Positions 4,110 to 63,680 of a stretch of DNA of 64,000 bases are shown here, piece by piece. A program made the translations under genes and the position numbers. The notes under the pieces were generated by a model. The model saw only the letters and a list, made by a program, of their open reading frames with translations. It was not told the origin of the DNA and ran no database searches. Where the stretch lies: positions 1 through 64,000 of the forward strand of contig CANJPU010000019.1 of the NCBI GenBank assembly GCA_947476285.1. Reading direction: 5' to 3'. Position 1 is the first letter of the stretch. Each line of letters opens with the position of its first letter. The DNA comes from Comamonadaceae bacterium (GTDB taxonomy: Bacteria; Pseudomonadota; Gammaproteobacteria; Burkholderiales; Burkholderiaceae_C).

Positions 4110-4874
4110 TCAGCGCGTCGTAGCCGGCGCGAGTTGTCGCTTGAGCAGGGCGCAATAGTCAGTTTGCGTCGGCTGGCGCGGGAACACCACGGCCCGCACT
4201 CGCGTGTCTGCGGGCAGATGCTGGGGAACGCCCAGGTCTGGATCGACGTGGCCCCCTCCGGCGATCAACACAACCGATTTGCCTTTTGTCGCCGTCTCGG
4301 TCAGGGTCAGCGCCATCCTGCGGTCGCGGGCGATCTGGATTCGGGCCATGGGGCCGACCTGGCTTTCAGGTAGCAAATTGCAGTGGCCCGCCCGTATGGC
4401 CTGTTGCTGGGCCTGCAGGGCTGGCGCGGGCAGCAATCGGTCCAGTGCTTCATCCGCCATGGCCGCACGCATGCCCGTTCGAGGCAGATTTGCGCCGAGC
4501 ACCGGTATCCCGGCCGAAACCGCAGCCATGATCGCATCGCGATAGACCGACCAGGGCCAGGCCGATTCGTTCCAGCGCAAGGCGGCCTGCACCTGAGCGT
4601 CGGACGCATCCTGGCGCAGACCGGCTGTGGATGCGCCATGCTCGGCCATCTCCAGCGCAACGGCGGCAAGTTGACCACGGGCGGCAAGGGCGGCAATGGT
4701 CTGGGCATGCCATTGCTGGTGCAATGGGGCGTCATGCTGTTCGCCCAACAAGATCAAATCCTCCGTCAGCGAGGCACCGTTTTCAAGCACAGCCAGCGGC
4801 AGAGGCGGTGGTGCCGCGCAATGGGCCAGTAAAACACTTGCCAGGGCGATGAGTCGGTGCATGCGAAAGGACAT
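4110..4874 (-). CDS. ChaN-family haem-binding lipoprotein-like protein
   Basis: The 254-residue protein has the core of the ChaN/TIKI-like family (erythromycin-esterase/TraB-related fold): ILLGEQHDAPLHQQ near the N-terminus, VALEMAEHG, PVLGANLPR and a late VVLIAGGGHVDPDLG. ChaN binds haem at the outer membrane in Campylobacter. A hydrophobic leader (LIALASVLLAHCA) ends in a Cys but with His before it, so the lipobox is imperfect. Start could be 4874 or an internal ATG at 4862. It is convergent with the aminotransferase (12 bp) and divergent from the AbrB-like gene. Confidence 0.75.
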   Translation of the reverse strand: MSFRMHRLIALASVLLAHCAAPPPLPLAVLENGASLTEDLILLGEQHDAPLHQQWHAQTIAALAARGQLAAVALEMAEHGASTAGLRQDASDAQVQAALRWNESAWPWSVYRDAIMAAVSAGIPVLGANLPRTGMRAAMADEALDRLLPAPALQAQQQAIRAGHCNLLPESQVGPMARIQIARDRRMALTLTETATKGKSVVLIAGGGHVDPDLGVPQHLPADTRVRAVVFPRQPTQTDYCALLKRQLAPATTR

Positions 4875-4900
4875 GCGGCGATACTAAGCGTTGCGGCCCC

Positions 4901-5977
4901 ATGACTTCCACCTTTCCCGTTCGCGTTGCTCTGACCTTGCTGCTGGCGCTGGCCGGCGCGCTGGTATGTGTGTGGCTGCGCACGCCCATTCCGTGGATGA
5001 TGGGCCCTTTGCTGGTGACTTCCCTGGCCTCGGTTTTGGGTCGACCCACACGCAGTTTCAGCCTTTTTCGCAATGCCGGCCAATGGATCATTGGCTGCGC
5101 GGTGGGGCTTTACTTCACCCCCGCGGTCATCTCGCTCGTCAGTGGTTTGTGGTGGGCGATTGCCTTAACCATCGCCTGGGCTTTGGGGGTAGGTTGGGGG
5201 CTGGGGCTGTGGCTCGCACGCACGAACGGCGCCTTCATGGGGGGCACGCCCGATCAGCAGCTCGCAACCGGATGCTTTTCGGGCGCGATAGGCGGCGCAT
5301 CCGAGATGACCCTGCTGGCTGAACGTGTGGGCGCGCGGGCCGATCTGGTGGCAGCCGCCCACAGTGTGCGCCTGCTGATCGTGACCCTGTCTGTGCCCTT
5401 TGCCCTGAGCCTGTCGGGTGTGCATGGGCTGGACGCAACCCTGCCTGGCCCACGCGTGGTCCACTATCCGGGCTTGCTTTTGTTGTTGGCTGTGACTGGC
5501 GGGGGCGCTTATTTGATGCAACTCACGGGCCGCGCCAACCCTTGGTTCACAGGACCCTTGATGATTGCGATGGGTTTGACTTTGGCGGGCGTTGAGTGGT
5601 CGTCGATGCCGCAGTGGTTGACCAATTGCGCTCAGCTTGTCATTGGCGTGAGTCTTGGCGTGCGGTTCTCGCCCGCTTTTGTGCGTACGGCACCGCGCTG
5701 GCTCGCCATGTCGGCGCTCAGCTCGGTGGCGACAGTATTGCTGTGCGCAGGATTTGCCGTGTTGCTGGGGCTGGCTTCAGGCCTGCACTGGTCCACCATG
5801 GTATTGGGCACCTCACCCGGTGGTATCGCCGAGATGGCAATTACCGCCAAGGTGCTGCAACTGGGCGTGCCAGTGGTGACGTCTTTCCAGATTTGTCGGG
5901 TGGTGGCGGTGCTGGTGCTGGTGGAGCCCATTTACCGGTTGAGCGTTAGGCGAAGCAAGGCTTCGGCTTCACGTTAG
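4901..5977 (+). CDS. AbrB-duplication-domain inner-membrane protein
   Basis: A 358-residue polytopic membrane protein of the family often mislabelled putative ammonia monooxygenase (PF05145, AbrB). It has two homologous halves: TPIPWMMGPLLVTSLASV in the first is echoed by NPWFTGPLMIAMGLTLAG in the second, and a TSPGGIAEMAITAK motif resembles the SGAIGGASEMTLLAE of the first half. About ten hydrophobic segments are visible. The function is unproven; transport or membrane regulation has been suggested. Only 26 bp separate it from the divergent ChaN-like gene, so promoters must overlap coding sequence. Confidence 0.82.
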   Translation: MTSTFPVRVALTLLLALAGALVCVWLRTPIPWMMGPLLVTSLASVLGRPTRSFSLFRNAGQWIIGCAVGLYFTPAVISLVSGLWWAIALTIAWALGVGWGLGLWLARTNGAFMGGTPDQQLATGCFSGAIGGASEMTLLAERVGARADLVAAAHSVRLLIVTLSVPFALSLSGVHGLDATLPGPRVVHYPGLLLLLAVTGGGAYLMQLTGRANPWFTGPLMIAMGLTLAGVEWSSMPQWLTNCAQLVIGVSLGVRFSPAFVRTAPRWLAMSALSSVATVLLCAGFAVLLGLASGLHWSTMVLGTSPGGIAEMAITAKVLQLGVPVVTSFQICRVVAVLVLVEPIYRLSVRRSKASASR

Positions 5978-51197: not shown

Positions 51198-52349
51198 CTA
51201 TTCGTCCAGCAAGCTCACTCCGTGACTTCGAAGCGACGCGATGGATTCCATGCTCAAACCCCAGTCACGCAGTGCCTGCAGGCCGCCTTCACCGCGCATC
51301 GGCGGCTGTGTGGGTGTGTGGGCGGCACTGCCCGAAAAGCGCGGGGCGGGTGCGGGCTGCACAACGCCGCCGACCTCGACGAAGGAATCGCGTGCCACGG
51401 CGTGCGCATCTGCTCTGGCCTCGGCGAAGGACAGCACCGGCGTCACACATGCATCCGAGTGATCGAAAACCGAACGCCACTCAGATCGGGTCCGCGTCTT
51501 GAATGCCTGCGCGATGATGGTGCCGATCTGCGGCCAGTGCGAGCGGTCCTTGCGGTCCGGTACCGTTGCCGGGTTCAGGCCGAGTTCCTTCAACAGCAAG
51601 GCATAGAACTCGTCTTCGTTGGCGCCCACCGCCATGAACTGGCCATCGGCGGTTTCATACGTCGCATACCAAGGCGCCGAACCATCCAGATGATTTTGGC
51701 CCCGTCCGTCCTTCCATCGACCGGATGCAAGCATGCCGCTGAACAGCGTGCCCAGCAGCGACGCGCCTTCGAACATTGCAGCATCCACCACCTGGCCCTT
51801 GCCGGTGCGCGACGCCTCCAGCAGGCCGCAGGCGATTCCAAAGGCCAGCAGCATCCCACCGCCACCCATGTCGCCCAGCAAGTTGAGCGGCACGGTGGGT
51901 GGCTCGCCGGCGCGGCCGATTGCGCCGAGCACTCCGCCCAATGCGATGTAATTGATGTCGTGCCCTGCGGTGGCCGCACGCGGGCCAGACTGCCCCCAGC
52001 CTGTCATGCGCCCATAGATGAGTCTGGGATTGCGGGCCAGGCATGCATCCGGACCCAGCCCGCGCCGCTCAAGAGCCCCAGGTCGGAACACGTCGATCAG
52101 CGCGTCAGCGCGCTCGACCAGCGTGAGCACCGCCTCAGTTGCACCATCTGCCTTGAGATCGACCATGACAGAGCGCTTGCCCCGCATCATTGTCTCGAAC
52201 CGTCGCTCACCATACTTGCCCATGCCCGGTGGCCCGACCCGGTCCAGCAGAAGCACGTCCGCGCCCATGTCGGCGAGCATCATGCCCGCAAACGGCCCTG
52301 GCCCGCTGCCCTGGAATTCGATGACCCGAAAGCCGGAAAGAGGTCCCAT
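51198..52349 (-). CDS. CaiB/BaiF CoA-transferase, alpha-methylacyl-CoA racemase-like
   Basis: The 383-residue protein begins MGPLSGFRVIEFQGSGPGPF and has LADMGADVLLLDRVGPPGMG (20), VFRPGALERRGLGPDACLAR (20), NPRLIYGRMTGWGQSGPRAA (20) and GHDINYIALGGVLGAIGRAG (20), a pattern closest to alpha-methylacyl-CoA racemase (AMACR) within the class III family. It could racemise 2-methylacyl-CoA or transfer CoA. It follows the acyl-CoA ligase by 16 bp in one operon. An upstream frame extension overlaps that ligase and is rejected. Confidence 0.88.
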   Translation of the reverse strand: MGPLSGFRVIEFQGSGPGPFAGMMLADMGADVLLLDRVGPPGMGKYGERRFETMMRGKRSVMVDLKADGATEAVLTLVERADALIDVFRPGALERRGLGPDACLARNPRLIYGRMTGWGQSGPRAATAGHDINYIALGGVLGAIGRAGEPPTVPLNLLGDMGGGGMLLAFGIACGLLEASRTGKGQVVDAAMFEGASLLGTLFSGMLASGRWKDGRGQNHLDGSAPWYATYETADGQFMAVGANEDEFYALLLKELGLNPATVPDRKDRSHWPQIGTIIAQAFKTRTRSEWRSVFDHSDACVTPVLSFAEARADAHAVARDSFVEVGGVVQPAPAPRFSGSAAHTPTQPPMRGEGGLQALRDWGLSMESIASLRSHGVSLLDE

Positions 52350-52365
52350 GGTGGTGACGGAATTT

Positions 52366-54009
52366 TCAGCGCGCGCCGGGGCGACGCAGAACGATTCCGG
52401 ACTTCTCGCGGTCGAACATGGACGCAAGGTCTGCCTGCGCTTGTTCGACCAGTTTGAATTTCTGGACCCTGTGGCTGAGCGTGCGCGGCAGATCATCCAC
52501 CAGCCGAACAAAACGCGGAACCATGTAGTAAGCCATATTCTTGCTGCAGAATTCGAGCAACTCCATCTCAGTCAGGGTGTGGCCGGGTTTGCACACGATG
52601 CTCGCCGCCACTTCTTCTTCGCTCAACTCCGCTGTGATGGCGTAGACGGCCACCTCCCCCACGGCTGGGTGCGAGGCGATGGCTTGCTCGACCTCGGCGC
52701 AGGAGATGTTCTCGCCGCGTCGCCTGATTGCGTCTTTCTTGCGTCCCACGAATTGAAGGTAGCCGTCTGCGTCAAGGTACCCAAGGTCGCCTGTGTGGAA
52801 CCACATGTTGCGCATGGCCGCCAGTGTGGCTTCGGGCATTTTGTAATAGCCCTGCGAGGTGTTCCACACGTTGTTGCTGCGAACAACGATCTCGCCAGGC
52901 TGCCCAGACGGCATGTCAAGATCGTCCTCGTCCACGATGCGCAGTTCGATGCCGCGCCGGGGCCGTCCAGCCGAGCCCAGTTTGGATCGCGGGTCTGCCG
53001 CGGTGAACGCGGCGATCTGCCCAAAATCCGAAAGGCCATAGCCGCTGACGATCTTGACGCCGAAGCGCGCCTCGAACTCGCTGCCGTAGCGCGGCACCGG
53101 AACCATTCGGCACAGCCGCAGTGAATGCGCACGATCGTCGCTTGAGGGCGGCTGATTCATGATGATGTCGGACATGGCACCCAGTGCGTTGCACAGCGTG
53201 ACCTTGTAGTCGCGGATGTCAGGCCAGAAGCGGCTCATCGAAAATCGCCGGGTCATCACCACACTGGCGCCCGCCAGCATCGCCGCATAGGTGACGCCGA
53301 ACAGGGCGCTCACATGGAACATGGGCAGGCAGACGTAGGCGATATCCTCAGGCCGATAGTCGTGCTCCTGCGCATTGTTCGCCGCATACCCCAGGCAGTG
53401 CGCATGCGGGTACATGTTCAGCTTGGAAGGGCCGGTCGTGCCGGAGGTGTAGGACAGGAATGCGAGGTCGGTAAAACGAACCTGCGAATCAATCGGGGAA
53501 TCACCATGCTGTTCGAGCTCGGCGAAAGAAATGCAGGCAGCCTCGGGCCATGGGGAAGCGACAGGCGATGGGCCCTCGCCCAGGACGATGATGGATTTCA
53601 AGGCGAGGGGCGCCGCGTTGTCGGTGCCGGTGAAGCTCTCTTGCAATGCGGCATCGACGACCAGCACGGTGGCGTCGGACAGATTCACCAGATGCCGCAG
53701 CTGGCTGCCGCGGGCCGCTGTGTTGACCGGCACCACCACCGCGCCAAGCTTGCCGAGCGCAAAGTAGAGAAGAAGCTGTTCGGGCGAGTTCTCCATCATC
53801 ACCGCGACGTGCGCGCCCTTGCTCACCCCGTTTGCAAGAAGCCCGCTCGCCAGCCGATTCGAGAGCAGGTCCAGATCCCTGTAGGTGAAAGTGCGGCCAT
53901 CTGGGACAAAGCTGAGAAACACCTTTGAGCCCAACTGCTCGGCCTGCCGTGCGAGCACCTGGCCGATGGTGCGCTGCTGCAAGGGAAAGCTGATGGAGGA
54001 CATCCTCAA
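52366..54009 (-). CDS. AMP-dependent acyl-CoA synthetase/ligase
   Basis: The 547-residue ANL-family enzyme activates a carboxylate through an adenylate. Core motifs: SYTSGTTGPSKLNMYPHA (P-loop A3), VSGYGLSDFGQIAAF, the A7 segment WFHTGDLGYLDADGYLQFVG (20), A8 RRRGENISCAEVEQAI and the end LPRTLSHRVQKFKL with the catalytic Lys. It resembles crotonobetaine/carnitine CoA ligases more than fatty-acid ligases. The start overlaps the upstream nitronate monooxygenase-like stop by 4 bp. Confidence 0.9.
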   Translation of the reverse strand: MRMSSISFPLQQRTIGQVLARQAEQLGSKVFLSFVPDGRTFTYRDLDLLSNRLASGLLANGVSKGAHVAVMMENSPEQLLLYFALGKLGAVVVPVNTAARGSQLRHLVNLSDATVLVVDAALQESFTGTDNAAPLALKSIIVLGEGPSPVASPWPEAACISFAELEQHGDSPIDSQVRFTDLAFLSYTSGTTGPSKLNMYPHAHCLGYAANNAQEHDYRPEDIAYVCLPMFHVSALFGVTYAAMLAGASVVMTRRFSMSRFWPDIRDYKVTLCNALGAMSDIIMNQPPSSDDRAHSLRLCRMVPVPRYGSEFEARFGVKIVSGYGLSDFGQIAAFTAADPRSKLGSAGRPRRGIELRIVDEDDLDMPSGQPGEIVVRSNNVWNTSQGYYKMPEATLAAMRNMWFHTGDLGYLDADGYLQFVGRKKDAIRRRGENISCAEVEQAIASHPAVGEVAVYAITAELSEEEVAASIVCKPGHTLTEMELLEFCSKNMAYYMVPRFVRLVDDLPRTLSHRVQKFKLVEQAQADLASMFDREKSGIVLRRPGAR

Positions 54010-55127
54010 GACTCCATGGCCCCGTTAAGCCGGTCCATGGTGTCCGAGAAATCCGAGAGCATGGTGTAGACGACTTGCTTGACGGTGGTTTCCTCGCGCA
54101 GTTGCCCGACGACCTGGCCGGCTGGATAGGACAGCAGCGGTTCTGAGCGAAAGCGCACCATGCGCTCCAGCGCTTCGTTGACCAGCATCGACTGCAGCGG
54201 CATGCGCAGCGCCTTGGGTGCGCCCTCGGCCTCCCAGGCTTCCACCCAGGCCGAGCGCAGACGACGCGCGGGCTTTCCGGTGCCACAACGTGAGCGAAGC
54301 GTATCGCTGGAAGTCGCTGCGAACAGTTTCTTCTTGAGTTCAGGGATGACCTCGCTCTCGGCAGTGCCCAGCCACACAGTCCCCGTCCATGCGCCCTGCG
54401 CGCCCAGCGCAAGCACGGCTGCGAGCTGACGTCCATTGCCGATGCCACCGGCTGCAAGCACTGGGATGGGTGAGACCAGGTCCACCACTTCGGGAACCAG
54501 GACAAGCGTAGAGATCTCTCCGGTGTGGCCGGCTGCCTCCCAGCCCTGCGCGACGATGATGTCAACGCCTGCGTCGGCCTGAGTCTTGGCATGCTTGGGG
54601 TGCCCTATCAGGCCGGCGACTTTCAAGCCCAGCGAGTGCGCGCGCTCAATCACGTGTGCAGGCGGTGCGCCCAGCGCGCTGACGATCATGCGGGCCTGGG
54701 GATGCCGGTACACGACTTCCAGGCGCTTCTCGGCCTCGCGGTGCGTGCGTGTCAGATCTGACATGTACTCACGCATCATCTCTTCGCTCTGCTCTTTGGA
54801 GAGTTCGGGCACGTCGTACTTGCGCATCAAGGCGGCGACGAACTCCCGGTGTTCCTTGGGAAGGTATTGATTGACTGTTTCGGGTGTCAGGTTTTCATAT
54901 TCCTTGGGCTGCTTGGACGGGAACAGAACGTCCACACCATAGGGCTTGCCGTCACAGTGCTGGTCCAGCCAACTGAGTTCGAGTTCAAGCTGATCTGCGG
55001 TGAAGTGCGAAGTGCCCAGCGTTCCCATGCCGCCGCTGCGACTGACCGCCGCGACCACATCGCGGCAGTGTGAGAACGCGAAGATCGGCGCGGTCAATCC
55101 GAACATTTCCATCACAGGGGTGTGCAT
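54006..55127 (-). CDS. Nitronate monooxygenase-like FMN enzyme
   Basis: The 373-residue TIM-barrel flavoprotein matches the NMO/2-nitropropane dioxygenase family (IPR004136): FGLTAPIFAFSHCRDVVAAV then SRSGGMGTLG, DIIVAQGWEAAGHTGEISTL (20), PVLAAGGIGNGRQLAAVLAL (20) and GAWTGTVWLGTAES. Whether it acts on nitronates is not shown; many members have other redox roles. GAGGAGT lies 8 nt before the ATG. It is the first gene of a run with the acyl-CoA ligase and racemase-like genes. Confidence 0.87.
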   Translation of the reverse strand: MHTPVMEMFGLTAPIFAFSHCRDVVAAVSRSGGMGTLGTSHFTADQLELELSWLDQHCDGKPYGVDVLFPSKQPKEYENLTPETVNQYLPKEHREFVAALMRKYDVPELSKEQSEEMMREYMSDLTRTHREAEKRLEVVYRHPQARMIVSALGAPPAHVIERAHSLGLKVAGLIGHPKHAKTQADAGVDIIVAQGWEAAGHTGEISTLVLVPEVVDLVSPIPVLAAGGIGNGRQLAAVLALGAQGAWTGTVWLGTAESEVIPELKKKLFAATSSDTLRSRCGTGKPARRLRSAWVEAWEAEGAPKALRMPLQSMLVNEALERMVRFRSEPLLSYPAGQVVGQLREETTVKQVVYTMLSDFSDTMDRLNGAMES

Positions 55128-55440
55128 CTCTGACTCCTCGAAAATAGTACTTCTGTTGTTTCCACAAGCTATGGTGGTCAGCAAGGAATATGCCACACGC
55201 GATGATGAAATGTGTTCGCGCAATTACCAATGAGCAGACACTATTTGTTTGTCCATGATTGTTCTCCATGAGGACATCTTGGCCCTGCATGTATCGGGTC
55301 GATACACTCGCGTGTGATTCGATGGCATCTTGATCTGCTGCGCTGCAACAGTGGATAGGGCAATTTGCTGGCACATGCTTTGCAAAGTCCATCGGTACGC
55401 ATCGGCGTACATCGGTTCGATCAAGACAAGGAGACACTCG
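55128..55440. promoter_or_regulatory. Divergent control region with two palindromes
   Basis: This 313-bp intergenic region serves the leftward NMO operon and the rightward flavoprotein operon. It contains TGTATCG-GGT-CGATACA (55290-55306), a perfect 7-bp-arm palindrome that includes a T-N11-A core, and GTACGC-ATCG-GCGTAC (55395-55410), a second perfect palindrome 31 bp before the flavoprotein start. Both look like operators. No regulator gene is encoded nearby and no ORF in the region is supported. Confidence 0.6.
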
Positions 55441-57039: not shown

Positions 57040-57120
57040 GCCCAACGCTAATCCCAACGCTGGCGCACCCGCTCCGATATCTGTACATTGCAGACCAGTA
57101 GTTCATCACAGGAGGCAGAG

Positions 57121-58122
57121 ATGTTGCAGTTTATGCGTGCTTCGAAGTTCCCCAAGGCATTGCTCGCCTTTGCAGCGGTTTCATGGGTGGCCAGCGCAGC
57201 CGCGCAGACCGGCGCTAGCCGATACCCTGACAAGCCGATTCGGATCATCGTGCCAGTTGGCGCGGGTGGCAGCACCGATGTGATCACCCGGATCGTCACC
57301 GAAAGGCTGGCCGCGAAACTCGGGCAGACGATCATCGTCGACAACAAGCCCGGTGCCGGTGGCATTGTCGGTACCGAACTGGCGGCCAAGGCAGCGCCTG
57401 ACGGCTACACGCTTCTCATGGGCTATGCGGCATTTGCACTGTCGCCTCACCTGGTCAAGACTGTGGCTTACGATCCGCGCACCTTTGTGCCCATCTCGCA
57501 AGTGGCGACCCAGGCGATCGCGATTGCAGCGCATCCTTCGTTCGCACCCAGAACGCCTCGGGAAATCGTGGACTGGACGAAGGCCAATCCCGGCAAGCTG
57601 AACGTCGGAATTTCCACGACAGGCAGCTCGGGTCATGTCGCCTTCGAGCAATTGAGGTTGCAGACCGGCCTGGATGCGCAAGGCGTCATTTACAAGAGCG
57701 CAGCAGCCAACATGACCGCAGTGCTGTCAAGCGAAGTGCCGATGTCATTTGTCAGTGTGTCCGGTGCCCTGCCTTTTCAAAAGTCCGGGCAGCTTCGCAT
57801 CGTCGCCACCCTCACCGACAAGCGCACGCCGCAGACGCCCAACGTGCCCACGTTCAACGAGTCGGGTGTGCCGGGCGTGAGCAAACTGGTGTCGACCGGC
57901 TGGACCGGCCTGCTGGCCCCACCGGGCACACCCAAACCGATCGTCGACCGCGTCTACGCGGCGCTGGTGGAGGTGCTGGCAGAGCCGGCGATCATCGCGA
58001 AACTCGAAGTCGTGGGCGTCAATGTTCTGGGCAGTTCGCCGGCAGAATTCGCCAAGGAAATCGAGGCGGAAAGCATCGAGTTCAAGACGGTCGTTGAGCG
58101 CTCTGGCATGAAGATGCGTTAG
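57121..58122 (+). CDS. Bug-family (TctC-like) periplasmic solute receptor
   Basis: The 333-residue receptor has a signal peptide (LLAFAAVSWVASAAAQ), KPIRIIVPVGAGGSTDVITR (20), VDNKPGAGGIVGTELAAKA, APDGYTLLMGYAAFAL and LAPPGTPKPIVDRVYAAL. GGAGG lies 7 nt before ATG 57121. It is 81 bp after the flavoprotein gene in the same direction and likely supplies or senses its substrate. It is convergent with the selenoprotein gene (12 bp). Confidence 0.92.
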   Translation: MLQFMRASKFPKALLAFAAVSWVASAAAQTGASRYPDKPIRIIVPVGAGGSTDVITRIVTERLAAKLGQTIIVDNKPGAGGIVGTELAAKAAPDGYTLLMGYAAFALSPHLVKTVAYDPRTFVPISQVATQAIAIAAHPSFAPRTPREIVDWTKANPGKLNVGISTTGSSGHVAFEQLRLQTGLDAQGVIYKSAAANMTAVLSSEVPMSFVSVSGALPFQKSGQLRIVATLTDKRTPQTPNVPTFNESGVPGVSKLVSTGWTGLLAPPGTPKPIVDRVYAALVEVLAEPAIIAKLEVVGVNVLGSSPAEFAKEIEAESIEFKTVVERSGMKMR

Positions 58123-58134
58123 CCACACTGAGCT

Positions 58135-58701
58135 TCAAAACGAAAAATTCCGCCCCGCGTGCTCTTTGGTCAGGCGTGCGACGGCCGCGTCACACACCAT
58201 GTCGGCGACTTCCAAGAGTTCGGCCTCGCTGATGAATTCTGGGTTTTCCTTGATTTCGATGCAAACCGATTCGGGAACCTTTTGAGCATGCATGACGGTC
58301 TTGGCGAGCTTGTTGAACTGGCCCGTGGACACCACAACCGCAGGCATGCCGCGCTTGATCAACTGTGCTGCGTCATGGACACTCCACGACGTGCACGAAC
58401 CTCAGTTGGCCAAGCCGACGACAGCGCCGGCGCATTCCTTGGCTATGCGGTCGAGCAATTCCGGGGGCGGCGCCGGTTGCGTGGGTACTGAATAGACCCG
58501 CAGTCCGGCGATGCCGTGGCGCTCCTTGAGCAACTCTTCCATGCGCAGGCCGATCTTTCCGAAACTGACCCACCCGTTGCTGACAAAGGCAATCCACTTG
58601 TCCTTCAGTTCGCCAACCTTGGGCACAAACAATTGCCGGCCCAGTTTGGGCGAAGTGGGATTGAGATACTCAATCTCCATAGGCGGATTCATCTGAGTCA
58701 T
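58135..58701 (-). CDS. UGSC-family selenoprotein with in-frame UGA (Sec100)
   Basis: Reading through the TGA at 58402-58404 joins two open segments into one 188-residue protein. The first 99 residues start MTQMNPPMEIEYLNPTSPKL and end AKECAGAVVGLAN. The UGA is residue 100, giving the motif U-G-S-C, and the frame continues TSWSVHDAAQLIKRGMPAVV (20) and VSTGQFNKLAKTVMHAQKVP (20) to FSF and a stop. From memory, databases contain a family named UGSC (seleno)protein with Sec or Cys at this site, so UGA here is expected to be selenocysteine. A SECIS-like hairpin follows the UGA. The start overlaps the upstream partner gene by 4 bp. Activity is unknown; a redox or reductase role fits the Sec-x-x-Cys motif. 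Confidence 0.85.
58365..58396 (-). promoter_or_regulatory. Bacterial SECIS-like hairpin
   Basis: In the mRNA sense, 5 nt after the UGA, GUGC pairs with a distal GCAC. After a small bulge (A against CA) CGUCGUGGA pairs with UCCAUGACG over nine pairs (one G-U), closed by the loop GUG at nucleotides 20-22 after the UGA. In E. coli the SECIS loop lies roughly 16-37 nt after the UGA with a functional G/U in the loop. Position, stem length and loop G all fit. Confidence 0.75.
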
Positions 58702-59772: not shown

Positions 59773-60744
59773 CTACTTCTTTTCGGCTGCGGGCTTCTTC
59801 ACAACGCTGGCGTATTTAGCCGTCTCATTCTTGAGGAAGGACTCGAACTGTTCGGGGGTCGAGATGAAAGGCTGCCCGCCCTGACTCTCCAGTCTCGCAA
59901 CCACGGCGGGCATCTTCAGAATTTTGTTGATGCTTGCAGAGTATCTATCGACGATCGGCTTGGGTGTACCCGCCAAGGCCACGATGCCGAACCATAACTG
60001 CATGTTCATTGGGCGCACGCCCGCCTCGGCAAGCGTGGGCACGTCTGGCAGAAGCGACACCCGGGTCTCGCTATCGACCGCCAGCGCCTTGATCTTTCCG
60101 GACTTGATGTGCGGCAGGACCGACAGCACGGAAGAGACATACAAATGGATGCGTCCCCCGATGAGGTCAACCAGGATGGGCGCGGCCCCCTGGTAGGGGA
60201 TCTCTTGCATCTTCAAGCCCACCACGTCGCCGAACATCTGAGTAGCCAGACCATTGGACGACCCCACTCCGGGCGACCCGAAGTTGATGGAGCCTTCCTT
60301 CTTGCCAAAGGCGATGAACTCCGCAACCGTGTTGGCCGGCACCGCTGGCCCGGTCGTCAAGACATACGGCCCGCTTGAGAGCGTGGCGATGGGCGCGAAA
60401 TCCTTGATCGGGTCGAACAGAGCGTTCGGCATGATCAGTGGGTTGATGACGTGCGAGGTGTAAATCAGCAGGATGGAGTTTCCATCCGCAGGCTGGTTCG
60501 CAAGAGCCTGCATCGACACGATGCTCGTCGCACCGGGTCGGTTCTCAACGATCACCGGCGAAGCCAGATCCTCGGACATGTACTGGCCGATCAATCTTGC
60601 GAGGATGTCGGTGGACCCACCGGCAGGGCCGGGCACAAACAATCGTATGGGCTTGCCAGGCTGCTGAGCAGCCGCCATCGACCCGGTAAGGGCCAGTGCT
60701 GCGCACATGCACAGTGACTGAGCCAATCGCAAGAGCATTCTCAT
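59773..60744 (-). CDS. Bug-family (TctC-like) periplasmic solute receptor
   Basis: The 323-residue receptor has a signal peptide (LAQSLCMCAALALTGSMAAA, 20) and the motifs KPIRLFVPGPAGGSTDILAR (20), VENRPGATSIVSMQALANQ and LAGTPKPIVDRYSASI. AGAGGTG lies before ATG 60744. It heads the operon with the partner and UGSC genes, so its ligand is probably the substrate of that system. Confidence 0.92.
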   Translation of the reverse strand: MRMLLRLAQSLCMCAALALTGSMAAAQQPGKPIRLFVPGPAGGSTDILARLIGQYMSEDLASPVIVENRPGATSIVSMQALANQPADGNSILLIYTSHVINPLIMPNALFDPIKDFAPIATLSSGPYVLTTGPAVPANTVAEFIAFGKKEGSINFGSPGVGSSNGLATQMFGDVVGLKMQEIPYQGAAPILVDLIGGRIHLYVSSVLSVLPHIKSGKIKALAVDSETRVSLLPDVPTLAEAGVRPMNMQLWFGIVALAGTPKPIVDRYSASINKILKMPAVVARLESQGGQPFISTPEQFESFLKNETAKYASVVKKPAAEKK

Positions 60745-61058
60745 TGGGCACCTCTCGATGACGAACCGACAAAACAATGACCAAATAACGGCATGACGCA
60801 GCAGGCAATGTACCAGCGACTGCGCTGCACCGCCAGCGGGCTGCCCCGAATGCGATAGGCGTTTACTGAGGCAAACGCTTCAGTGATGCGGTCAGCTCCT
60901 GGCACGCGCGTATCGCGCTGCATCAACGGGGTTTCGCTGCGACAGGCACGTCTCAAACTGCTACAGTTGGCTGCGCTCACGATCCGCGGATACAAGCATT
61001 TCCCTCGCGATGGGGTCAAGCGGTCGGGCAGCAAATCGCAATAGAAGGAGCCAAAGAA
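60745..61058. other. Divergent promoter region, 314 bp
   Basis: No gene is supported here. It serves the leftward Bug-UGSC operon and the rightward MmgE/PrpD operon. GCGTTT (60859-60864) faces AAACGC (60873-60878), and ACTGA (60865-60869) faces TCAGT (60880-60884). These interleaved repeats may be an operator. AAGGAG precedes the MmgE/PrpD start. Confidence 0.45.
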
Positions 61059-62456
61059 ATGCAGCCTCCACAAGAGAGCGCCGACCTGGCCGACGTCTTT
61101 GCGCGGCACACAGTCGATACCACTTTCGATGCACTGCCGCTTGCTGCCGTCGAGGCCGCCCGCTCCAGCACGCTCGATACGCTTGGATGCATGGTTGGCG
61201 CAACCGGTTTCGTGCCAGCGCTGCGCAACATCGTCGAGCTCTTGCGCGAAGCTGGCGGCAAGCCCGAAAGCACCATCATCGGCTTCGGCGCACGCGTGCC
61301 TGCTTGGGAGGCCGCGTTTGCCAACGGTGCGATGGCGCACTGCCTGGACTACGACGACCACATGCCCGAAGGCCACCATCCCAGCAGTGCCGTCGTGCCT
61401 GCCGTCTTCGCAGTGGCCGAGCGGCTGGGCCACGTCAATGGCAAGGACTTTCTCGCCGCGATCGCTCTGGGTCAGGACATCTTTGCCCGGTTGCGTCGCA
61501 ACGTTCAGTGGAAGCAGGACTGGCACCTCTCGCCGGTGCTCGGCATTTACGCAGCGACGGCGGCCTGCGGCAAGCTGCTGGGTTTGAATCAAAAGCAGAT
61601 GGTGAACGCGCTGGGCATCGCGACCTGTCAGTCGGCATGCACGATGGAACTGGGCTACGGGGTTGGCAGCGATCTGCGCGGCATGTACCCCGCATTCGCC
61701 AGCAAAGGCGCTGTGTTTTCTGCGTTGCTCGCGCAGCGCGGCATCACCGGCGTGCAGACCGCCTTCGAGGGCAGGGCCGGTGTGATGCCGGTGTACTTTG
61801 ACGGAAAGTGGGACAAGCAAGCTATGGTCGCCAAGCTCGGGCGCGACTACCAAGGTGCCGCCACCATGTACAAGCCCTGGCCCAGTTGCGGCGCATCGCA
61901 TGTGTACATCGATGCCACGCTCAAGCTGCTCGCTGCACACCCACTTGGTGGTGCCGACATTGAAAAAGTCATCGTCCACGTGGGTGACTTCGCGCAGCGT
62001 CTGTGCGAACCGCTTGCCGCCAGGCGCCGGCCCGCTACCGTCGTCGATTCCAAGTTCAGCATTCCCTATGCGGTGGCGCAGGCCGTGGCACGCGGGCGTG
62101 TCGGTCTGGGCGACTTCACTGAAGCAGCCCTGCGCGATCCCGAGGTGCTGCGCGTGGCGGACAAAGTGGAATTCGTCACCGACCCGCAGTACAACTGGAG
62201 CATGCACCTGCCCGGCGGCAGGGTCACGATTGTCACGCGGTCGGGCCAGAGCTTGTCTTGCGAGAGCCATTCGGACAATGTTCGCGGCAGTGCGGCAAAC
62301 CCGCTGACGTGGATCGACCTCGTGGAAAAATTCTCGGAATGCGCACGCCATGCAGCGAACCCAATCTCACCGGCCACCACTGCGCAAGTCTGCGACGCCA
62401 TCCACAAGATCGAAGAGGTGGACGATGTCGCCTCGATCATTGCCCTGCTGGGCTGA
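61059..62456 (+). CDS. MmgE/PrpD family protein
   Basis: The 465-residue protein belongs to the family of 2-methylcitrate dehydratase PrpD and cis-aconitate decarboxylase. Visible features are LEAARSSTLDTLG-like LAAVEAARSSTLDTLGCMVG (20), CLDYDDHMPEGHHPSSAVVP (20), AIALGQDIFARLRRNVQWKQ (20) and YKPWPSCGASHVYIDATLKL (20). It probably dehydrates or decarboxylates a tricarboxylate-like compound. It is 15 bp before the MR/MLE gene. A member of this type beside a TcuA-like gene points to tricarballylate/aconitate-like substrates, but that is inference. Confidence 0.88.
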   Translation: MQPPQESADLADVFARHTVDTTFDALPLAAVEAARSSTLDTLGCMVGATGFVPALRNIVELLREAGGKPESTIIGFGARVPAWEAAFANGAMAHCLDYDDHMPEGHHPSSAVVPAVFAVAERLGHVNGKDFLAAIALGQDIFARLRRNVQWKQDWHLSPVLGIYAATAACGKLLGLNQKQMVNALGIATCQSACTMELGYGVGSDLRGMYPAFASKGAVFSALLAQRGITGVQTAFEGRAGVMPVYFDGKWDKQAMVAKLGRDYQGAATMYKPWPSCGASHVYIDATLKLLAAHPLGGADIEKVIVHVGDFAQRLCEPLAARRRPATVVDSKFSIPYAVAQAVARGRVGLGDFTEAALRDPEVLRVADKVEFVTDPQYNWSMHLPGGRVTIVTRSGQSLSCESHSDNVRGSAANPLTWIDLVEKFSECARHAANPISPATTAQVCDAIHKIEEVDDVASIIALLG

Positions 62457-62471
62457 AGCACGCGAGGTTCC

Positions 62472-63680
62472 ATGACAGCGCAACAGAACGTTCAATCGAT
62501 ATCTCTCCCGCCGGCGGGTGCTGGCCTTCGCATCGATGAGATCGAGCTGGTCTTGCTCGACACGACGCCGCGCCTGAAGCGGCGCATATCCACCGGAGAG
62601 CTCGCCTACGGAGATGCGAAAAGCCCCATGGGCAAGCCCGTATTCCTGCGGGTGCGCGCGGGCGGTTTCTCGGGATGGAGCCAACTGCGCCCGGCCAATC
62701 CCTATCAGGGCGACACCGCAGCCGGTGCCTACGCGGCGCTGCGAGACTTCTATGCGCCCAAAGTGATCGGGCAAGACGCGTGGCGCTCGGTCGCGATCTT
62801 GCGGCAATGCGAAACCATGCTGCCGGATAACCCGGTGCCATTGGCGCTGCTCGATATGGCGCTGCACGACCTGGTCGGACGCGCGGTGGGTGTGCCTGTT
62901 CATGCCCTTCTGGGCGGCGCCTGCCGCGATCGCATCCCGATGGAGTGGTCGATTGGACTCTCGGATGAAGAGACCATGGTGCGCGAGGCCGCCATGGCGG
63001 TCGAGCGCTACGAGGTGCCTTACTTGTGCGTCAAGGTCGGCCCGTCGCCGCGCCTTGAAGAAGACGTCCGCGCCGTCAAGCGCATCCGCAAGGAGGTAGG
63101 GCCGCACATCAAGCTGGGCATGGATGCCAACACCAGCTACGACCTGGTCGCCGCGACCCATTTGGTGGAGCGCCTGCAGGACGCGGACATCACCTATTTC
63201 GAGCAGCCTCTTGCCGTGCGTGCGCTGCGCGACACGGCGGTGCTTCGCAGCCGTGCGCGCTGCGCGATCATGGCCGATGAGTCGGTCTACGGCATCGCCG
63301 ATGCGCTTGCGATCGCGGCGGGCGATGCATTCGATGTGCTTGCCAACAAGTTCATCAAGTCGGGTGGCTTCAGGCGCTCGCGCGAGATCGCCACAATCGC
63401 CGATGCCGTGGGGCGCAGCATGAACTGCGCCGGCACGGCCAACGGCTCGTACCTCGAAGCCATTGCCGGCGCGCACCTGTGTGCGGCCGTACCGAATCAC
63501 GTCTTCGGCGCTGAGTTCGTGATGGGCTTGCCGCAGGTTGATGTCGATCCGCTGGTGCAGAACCGGCCGGTGGAATTGAAAGACGGGCACGCCACGGTGC
63601 CGATGCTGCCGGGTTTGGGCGCGCAGCTCGACGAGGCGGTGCTGGACCGGATCGCGATTGCGCGGCAAGTGTTCCGCTGA
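62472..63680 (+). CDS. Mandelate racemase/muconate lactonizing enzyme family protein
   Basis: The 402-residue enolase-superfamily protein has the catalytic Lys block VPYLCVKVGPSPRL, metal ligands in KLGMDANTSYDL, TYFEQPL and IMADESVYG and the later NKFIKSGGFRRS. It uses proton abstraction next to a carboxylate. The Lys-x-Val in place of the Lys-x-Lys motif makes the racemase/cycloisomerase subgroup uncertain. It is co-directional with MmgE/PrpD, 15 bp apart. Confidence 0.88.
   Translation: MTAQQNVQSISLPPAGAGLRIDEIELVLLDTTPRLKRRISTGELAYGDAKSPMGKPVFLRVRAGGFSGWSQLRPANPYQGDTAAGAYAALRDFYAPKVIGQDAWRSVAILRQCETMLPDNPVPLALLDMALHDLVGRAVGVPVHALLGGACRDRIPMEWSIGLSDEETMVREAAMAVERYEVPYLCVKVGPSPRLEEDVRAVKRIRKEVGPHIKLGMDANTSYDLVAATHLVERLQDADITYFEQPLAVRALRDTAVLRSRARCAIMADESVYGIADALAIAAGDAFDVLANKFIKSGGFRRSREIATIADAVGRSMNCAGTANGSYLEAIAGAHLCAAVPNHVFGAEFVMGLPQVDVDPLVQNRPVELKDGHATVPMLPGLGAQLDEAVLDRIAIARQVFR

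Follow-up and report, generated by a model that had tools for sequence, protein, structure and literature searches.

A predicted UGSC-family selenoprotein with a constant partner and a GrdB-related selenocysteine domain in a Comamonadaceae bacterium

The locus

The gene described here lies within a stretch of 64,000 nucleotides of a Comamonadaceae genome (contig CANJPU010000019.1, assembly GCA_947476285.1; hereafter, the window) and encodes a 188-residue protein of the UGSC family, preceded on the same strand by the gene of a partner protein and by that of a Bug-type (TctC) periplasmic binding protein, which stops 19 nt before the partner gene and probably opens an operon of three genes. A second TctC-type gene converges with the UGSC gene, and further enzyme genes are found on both sides (table 1).

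Table 1. Features of the UGSC locus (positions in the window).
Feature	Position	Strand	Basis
Three genes: CoA-transferase III, acyl-CoA-ligase-like, nitronate-monooxygenase-like	51198..55223	-	NCBIfam matches of the ligase are under the cut-offs
Second TctC-type binding protein, convergent with UGSC	57088..58122	+	TctC cluster member (L048:5089-6123)
UGSC-family selenoprotein gene (predicted), 188 aa with Sec100	58135..58701	-	PF24696, 93.6 bits; AlphaFold2 pLDDT 94.2
SECIS hairpin, 9-bp stem, GUG triloop	58371..58391	-	fold; same place in 82/97 sites; covariation; window copy alone z -1.44
Sec codon UGA, U100 of UGSC	58402..58404	-	TGA at site in 97/101 near-full family matches
Partner protein, 351 aa	58698..59753	-	upstream of UGSC, 4-nt overlap (ATGA); no Pfam/NCBIfam family
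Bug-type (TctC) periplasmic binding protein	59773..60777	-	TctC cluster member (L048:7774-8778), cluster representative PF03401
MmgE/PrpD family protein	61059..62456	+	PF03972, PF19305
Mandelate racemase/muconate lactonizing enzyme family	62472..63680	+	PF13378, PF02746

A mechanical listing of open reading frames splits the UGSC gene into two minus-strand products, one of 99 residues with an ATG start (58402-58701) and one of 75 residues with a TTG start (58135-58362). When the intervening TGA is read as a residue, a single frame is obtained, with the motif U100-G-S-C103 and an end stop TGA at 58135-58137; the partner gene also ends in TGA. The joined protein matches the Pfam UGSC family over residues 23-178, well above the cut-off of 25 bits, whereas the separate halves score 21.7 and 22.6 bits and both fall below it. 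The initial annotation had proposed precisely this smooth frame through the UGA, with UGSC at residues 100-103, and had named the family; both are borne out, the family being PF24696, while the strand had to be corrected to minus. It had also held that the downstream half could start only at a TTG inside conserved sequence: an ATG is available as well (M119, 58345-58347), but both starts do lie inside conserved sequence. Against the NCBIfam equivalog model of the family (NF041046), the protein reaches 74.1 bits, the cut-off being 125, so that it stands outside the NCBI core equivalog and inside the wider Pfam UGSC family. The gene at 58135-58701 genuinely belongs, in conclusion, to a selenoprotein family that is already known. 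Annotation can split such genes and, as a consequence, the pathways to which they belong may be missed.

The catabolic setting that had been suggested for the gene is supported by the families of its neighbours. Among 101 near-full-length UGSC genes (see below), 21 have TctC as their neighbour on the same strand, at most 250 nt away, no same-strand neighbour is found within that distance for 28, and for 47 the neighbour falls outside the labelled clusters; families recurring nearby are CoA-transferase III, ABC transporters, short-chain dehydrogenases/reductases (SDR), acyl-CoA dehydrogenase, enoyl-CoA hydratase, AMP-binding proteins and MmgE/PrpD. The genome of the window, however, holds at least 150 TctC/Bug genes in 4.9 Mb (341 candidates, 150 of them scored) and, TctC being so common, its proximity amounts to only a ca 2- to 4-fold excess and is taken as supporting evidence only.

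Decoding of the in-frame UGA

Relatives of the locus were fetched through the partner protein rather than through UGSC, so that forms with selenocysteine (Sec) and with cysteine could enter alike, and the best 80 of at least 574 confirmed loci were retained. The UGSC profile, run on regions of the window's own genome, on parts of three further genomes from the family and on those 80 loci, gave 113 matches, 101 of them near full length (the window's own included). Of the latter, 95 contain one in-frame TGA, two contain two and four none, and the partner stretches at the same loci contain no in-frame TGA (0/112). Within the window's genome, 11 of the 12 UGSC family members found carry the TGA. 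An alignment of 100 rows (the window protein and 99 near-full matches with at most one TGA) has Sec or Cys at position 100 in 99 rows, G101 in 99 and C103 in 97; residue 100 is, hence, not variable among homologues, a point on which the initial annotation could have failed.

The genome also encodes the whole apparatus for Sec insertion, as had been asked of it: SelB (407.5 bits, cut-off 242), SelA (567 bits, cut-off 268), SelD (427 bits, cut-off 125) and a tRNA-Sec scoring 74 bits against a gathering score of 47, with anticodon tca according to ARAGORN; a second place in the genome barely reaches 47.2. In a survey of 20 hand-picked genomes, selB exceeded the cut-off in all 10 with TGA-type UGSC (G000, G011, G284, G056, G299, G300, G301, G302, G312 and G315) and in one of seven in which only Cys-type UGSC was observed (G134, but not G048, G082, G105, G310, G311 or G322, the Cys-type gene of the last being known only from locus L106), which, for genomes picked by hand, corresponds to a Fisher p of 0.0006. 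The remaining three, congeners with no UGSC match, also had no selB over the cut-off (0/3).

Downstream of the UGA, the mRNA of the window can fold into a stem joining nucleotides 14-22 with 26-34 (the U of UGA being 1) around the GUG loop. Across the 97 Sec sites of the family, the pairing probability summed about an axis at nucleotide 24 averages 6.42, as compared with 1.68 in synonymous recodings, and exceeds 3 at 82 sites as opposed to 16 of the 97 shuffle means. The folding energy 3' of the UGA has a mean z of -1.87 relative to synonymous shuffles, with 81 of 97 sites under -1, while two control windows in the same genes give mean z values of -0.40 and -0.35, with 23 and 27 of 97 under -1. 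It is the family and not the single copy that carries the signal: the hairpin of the window taken alone is not significant (9 of 100 synonymous shuffles fold as low), and the L044 copy of the same genome is devoid of such a hairpin (z +0.57).

When the hairpins of 76 of the 97 sites are aligned, 87.8% of the stem cells pair, as opposed to 17-49% when the stem is slid. Both sides have changed in 42 cells as compared with 15.2 in shuffles (a number reached by none of 500), and the covariation score amounts to 0.270 versus 0.139. Two of the five covariation measures are not clearly above the shuffles, namely the number of pairs with both sides changed (5 versus 4.0; 166 of 500 shuffles as high) and that of further pair types (13 versus 10.7; 50 of 500 as high). 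Pair 21-27 is G-C in 47 sequences, C-G in 26 and unpaired in 3; pair 15-33 is G-C in 49, A-U in 5, G-U in 1 and unpaired in 21, and it joins third codon positions, so that, wherever the encoded T (ACG/ACA) and D (GAC/GAT) persist, both changes are silent. The conserved hairpin 3' of the UGA is, for the family, the SECIS element. Three Cys forms were also tested for the hairpin, and one has it: in Natrialba asiatica (L075), a haloarchaeal Cys-form UGSC with partner, a hairpin still follows the Cys codon (z -2.28), be it by chance or as a relic.

That the TGA might instead be a sequencing error, the lesion of a pseudogene or a plain stop between two short proteins is suggested by the mechanical listing, which does return two frames, and by the use of TGA as the end stop of both the UGSC gene and the partner gene. 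Against such a reading stand the recurrence, in 97 of 101 near-full matches, of the same TGA as the U of the motif, the complete Sec apparatus of the cell, the conserved hairpin and the fact that selB tracks the TGA type of the gene; sequencing error, in particular, is very unlikely because the TGA recurs in independent genomes. Taken together, these observations leave this alternative with next to no probability, and the gene is, with near certainty, that of a selenoprotein, the cell's own SelA, SelB, SelD and tRNA-Sec reading its UGA as Sec as directed by the downstream SECIS hairpin.

The partner protein

The partner matches no family of Pfam or NCBIfam, and the 110 aligned relatives have none in common. 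Eight of its columns are invariant in the 110 rows (D29, G79, G120, G146, R147, E181, W188 and G320), and two cysteines are nearly so (C80, 96%; C178, 90%); N74 also counts among the conserved residues. It lies within 600 nt in 96 of the 101 near-full UGSC matches, most of that set having been fetched through the partner itself. Two counts are free of this bias: in the window's genome, each of the 12 UGSC genes found, 11 of them with TGA, has the partner adjoining it or fused to it (the fusion of the twelfth being read by eye), with no UGSC gene found there to be devoid of a partner, and it accompanies 53 of 53 near-full genes in a Chloroflexi metagenome-assembled genome (MAG) described below. 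This twelfth gene, a divergent UGSC/partner fusion (L165, G000:C87:4829-5332; 30.8 bits), has no TGA and, as read by eye, C-D-A-G in place of UGSC; L061:7111-7641, with the motif C-D-Q-G, appears similar.

The model of a natural UGSC/partner fusion (L051; pLDDT 90.3, pTM 0.89) suggests a defined packing of its two parts. The UGSC product very probably forms one half of an enzyme, the other half being the 351-residue protein encoded upstream. The partner itself has no detectable kinship to the N-terminal GRDB domain or to GrdE (hhalign probability 0.2%, with only two GrdE sequences compared), and the GrdE family PF09338 is absent among partner matches at E up to 0.1; as no kinship to GrdE is detected, the pair may lack the pyruvoyl chemistry for which GrdE is known.

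Fold and kinship of the UGSC domain

The AlphaFold2 model of the UGSC protein, built from the 100 rows, alternates strands and helices and places Sec where the helix following strand 3 begins; the domain is thus modelled as Rossmann-like, its nearest solved folds being generic Rossmann, flavodoxin and CheY-like ones. The thioredoxin fold is absent from the list of nearest PDB entries, an absence which formally excludes nothing.

Kinship to the Sec subunits of the glycine and D-proline reductases is indicated by profile comparisons. In a scan of the 100 UGSC members against NCBIfam at E up to 0.1, the GrdB model TIGR01917 was matched by 50 (best 1.2e-5), GrdF by 26 and PrdB by 12; PF07355 (GRDB) is not among the 24 families matched by the 100 members at the same E, and the Pfam GRDB model ends directly before Sec. 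When UGSC was compared by hhalign with the C-termini of seven GrdB relatives, a probability of 96.2% was obtained (E 2.4e-9) and the Sec/Cys columns fell in register, the homology being limited to ca 72 columns around Sec. All seven GrdB relatives have U-G-[TS]-[CSG]-x-R past the end of the GRDB model, with Cys at +3 in only three of them; the seven, with TGA at the Sec position, come from Rokubacteria, Binatia and Nitrospinae (L133, L134, L135, L136, L142, L143 and L148). We conclude, with high confidence in the homology, that UGSC is the Sec-bearing Rossmann-like domain which GrdB/PrdB likewise carry at their C-terminus.

A small GrdB-like gene elsewhere in the window's genome (L139, G000:C27:5732-5941 and downstream) has a frame that runs on across a TGA, giving a U-P-L-C motif, and is a probable twelfth Sec gene of this genome, from a second family; U-P-[LV]-C members of this family also occur at L137, L138, L144-L146, L150 and L151, and L140 has C-P-I-C.

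Distribution and copy number

UGSC is sporadic, with a match in nine of 299 family-level genomes, the window's included, eight of them over the cut-off; within the same set, none of three congeners has a match. The initial annotation took selenoproteins to be rare in Burkholderiales; Sec use as such has been reported in Burkholderia (PMC5330540). Copies of PF24696 were counted in 24 genomes, the window's and 23 chosen for holding the partner locus, and number between 1 and 36, a single outlier apart: 36 in G315, 32 in G301, 19 in G318, 14 in G313, 12 in the window's genome and 1 in Xenophilus azovorans DSM 13620, where the match has a TGA at its UGSC motif and SelB exceeds the cut-off. In a tree of the 100 aligned rows, the 11 Sec copies of the window's genome appear, by eye, scattered, mostly beside sequences of other genomes; that of the window clusters with a Betaproteobacteria MAG, X. 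azovorans and the C8 paralogue (support 98/89, the bootstrap not having fully settled). Such scattered positions make the set of 11 look gathered or old rather than freshly duplicated. Sec-type UGSC genes are also present in three MAGs titled Bordetella parapertussis (L067, L073 and L080), a doubtful label in view of their environmental-looking isolate names.

The outlier is a groundwater Chloroflexi MAG (JACPQD, 5.0 Mb; G300, locus L061), with at least 150 UGSC matches (150 of 208 candidates scored). Among 141 of its UGSC genes that were listed, 134 have one TGA, three have two and four have none, so that 137 carry a TGA. A single contig of 350 kb bears 20 of the listed genes (the loci of this genome being L061, L153-L164 and L166-L191). 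Close reading of 370 kb, chosen around UGSC matches and selB, gave 60 UGSC matches, 53 of them near full length; all 53 have a single TGA at the U-G-x-C motif as well as the partner, 43 have the hairpin, and none of 55 near-full partner stretches contains a TGA. The highest pairwise identity among these UGSC genes is 79%, their GC content is 57-62% and only one selB exceeds the cut-off, which argues against a mixture of strains. By estimate, UGSC genes and partners occupy ca 5% of this genome.

For comparison, the reported maximum number of selenoprotein genes in a bacterium was 57 and then 63, as given in the available part of a 2026 review (PMC13188914). The 11 Sec copies found here and the 137 listed in the Chloroflexi MAG would lift this maximum more than twofold within a single family, and the latter genome possibly encodes the largest prokaryotic selenoproteome; no report of such an expansion appears among the matches listed for UGSC and selenoproteins in the literature, of which excerpts were available.

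Proposed function and its alternatives

UGSC has counted among the commonest selenoprotein families of marine and aquatic metagenomes since 2008 (PMC2398784, PMC9402790, in the portions available). The available excerpts of the literature on the family assign it no function and offer a guess, a thioredoxin-like role. The kinship to GrdB/PrdB, the constant partner and the catabolic setting lead to an enzyme hypothesis that can be tested.

In the glycine and D-proline reductases, the selenolate attacks an activated carbon, a nearby Cys resolves the Se-C adduct and a dithiol regenerates the enzyme. Most likely, UGSC and its partner form a two-part GrdB-type selenoenzyme that cleaves a C-X bond in imported carboxylates, a reading to which, as a whole, we assign a probability of about 0.6. 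The substrate, probably a small carboxylate brought by the TctC protein encoded upstream, would be held by the partner; the selenolate would attack an electrophilic carbon to yield a selenoether, Cys103 of the U-x-x-C motif would resolve it with formation of an Se-S bond and release of the reduced product, and a dithiol donor would reset the Se-S bond. The bond broken could be C-N, C-O, C-S or C-halogen, and the many paralogues could be versions for different substrates. Reductive C-X cleavage is proposed because UGSC keeps both Sec/Cys100 (99/100) and Cys103 (97/100). Computation shows the family, the Sec codon, the SECIS, the Sec genes, the pairing and the homology; chemistry and substrate, like formation of the complex, are inferred, and the complete scheme of selenolate, Cys103 and dithiol, drawn by analogy, is held tentatively, at a little under even odds.

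Two other functions deserve consideration. A thioredoxin-like thiol oxidoreductase serving general redox upkeep, rather than a substrate-specific enzyme, would suit the U-x-x-C motif and is what Zhang & Gladyshev considered 'likely' for UGSC in 2008 (PMC2398784, in the part available); yet the confident model, with its strand/helix alternation and its Rossmann, flavodoxin and CheY-like neighbours, and the homology to GrdB/PrdB speak against it, and the dozens of diverged paralogues in some genomes are ill-suited to housekeeping, which makes such a role distinctly improbable. The Rossmann-like domain, with its nucleophile at the end of strand 3, would also permit catalysis with no net reduction, as in Asp/Glu racemase- or arylmalonate decarboxylase-type enzymes, the protein acting as a racemase, lyase or hydrolase with a pocket supplied by the partner. 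The existence of Cys forms and the racemase- and CoA-family enzymes encoded nearby fit this possibility. However, a non-redox nucleophile has no obvious need for C103, which is kept in 97 of 100 rows, and the homology that is detected is to reductases, so that a non-reductive enzyme is unlikely, though less so than a thioredoxin-like one, and reductive cleavage by a GrdB-type pair remains the preferred reading.

By extension, UGSC/partner pairs may constitute a large, substrate-diversified class of GrdB-type selenium catabolic enzymes, cleaving bonds in dissolved organic matter for free-living heterotrophs of freshwater, soil and groundwater, with well above 100 Sec genes in one groundwater Chloroflexi; we give this broader proposal somewhat less than even odds. 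If true, it would imply the largest selenoproteome known and, if the hosts are aerobic, it would run counter to the statement of the 2026 review that selenoproteins are seldom kept by aerobic bacteria (PMC13188914).

Comparison with known systems

The window protein shares with the known UGSC family (PF24696; the 'UGSC-containing protein' of Zhang & Gladyshev; NF041046 for the core) the profile match, the UGSC motif and the use of UGA for Sec; versions of UGSC in which Sec is encoded by UAG have been described in Geodermatophilaceae, according to the accessible part of that report (PMC5330540). What is new with respect to the known family is the constant adjacent partner, the 11 Sec copies in one betaproteobacterium, the very large counts elsewhere and the kinship to GrdB instead of thioredoxin. 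A fusion of UGSC to a domain termed 'Unknown_1' was noted in GOS data by Zhang & Gladyshev (PMC2398784, in the excerpt available), and fusions of UGSC to a second domain occur among the present loci too (L034, L036, L022-L026 and L029). Presumably, the partner and 'Unknown_1' are the same domain; differently from the GOS fusions, separate and fused forms were both counted here.

With GrdB/PrdB (PF07355, TIGR01917, TIGR04483), UGSC has in common a homologous Sec domain with U-G-x-x at the same place, and gene order may be similar as well: at L192, a GrdE gene (PF09338, 5224-6606) lies directly upstream of that of a GrdB Sec protein (4169-5227) with a 4-nt overlap, matching the order and overlapping ends of partner and UGSC; at L197, GrdE is downstream of GrdB. 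Unlike GrdB/PrdB, UGSC lacks the long N-terminal GRDB domain, is paired with a protein that is not detectably GrdE in the comparison with two GrdE sequences, has many paralogues per genome and is presumably present also in aerobic lineages. The module may thus be described as a GrdB-type Sec domain combined with a different partner and multiplied into many paralogues, a variant worth biochemical work.
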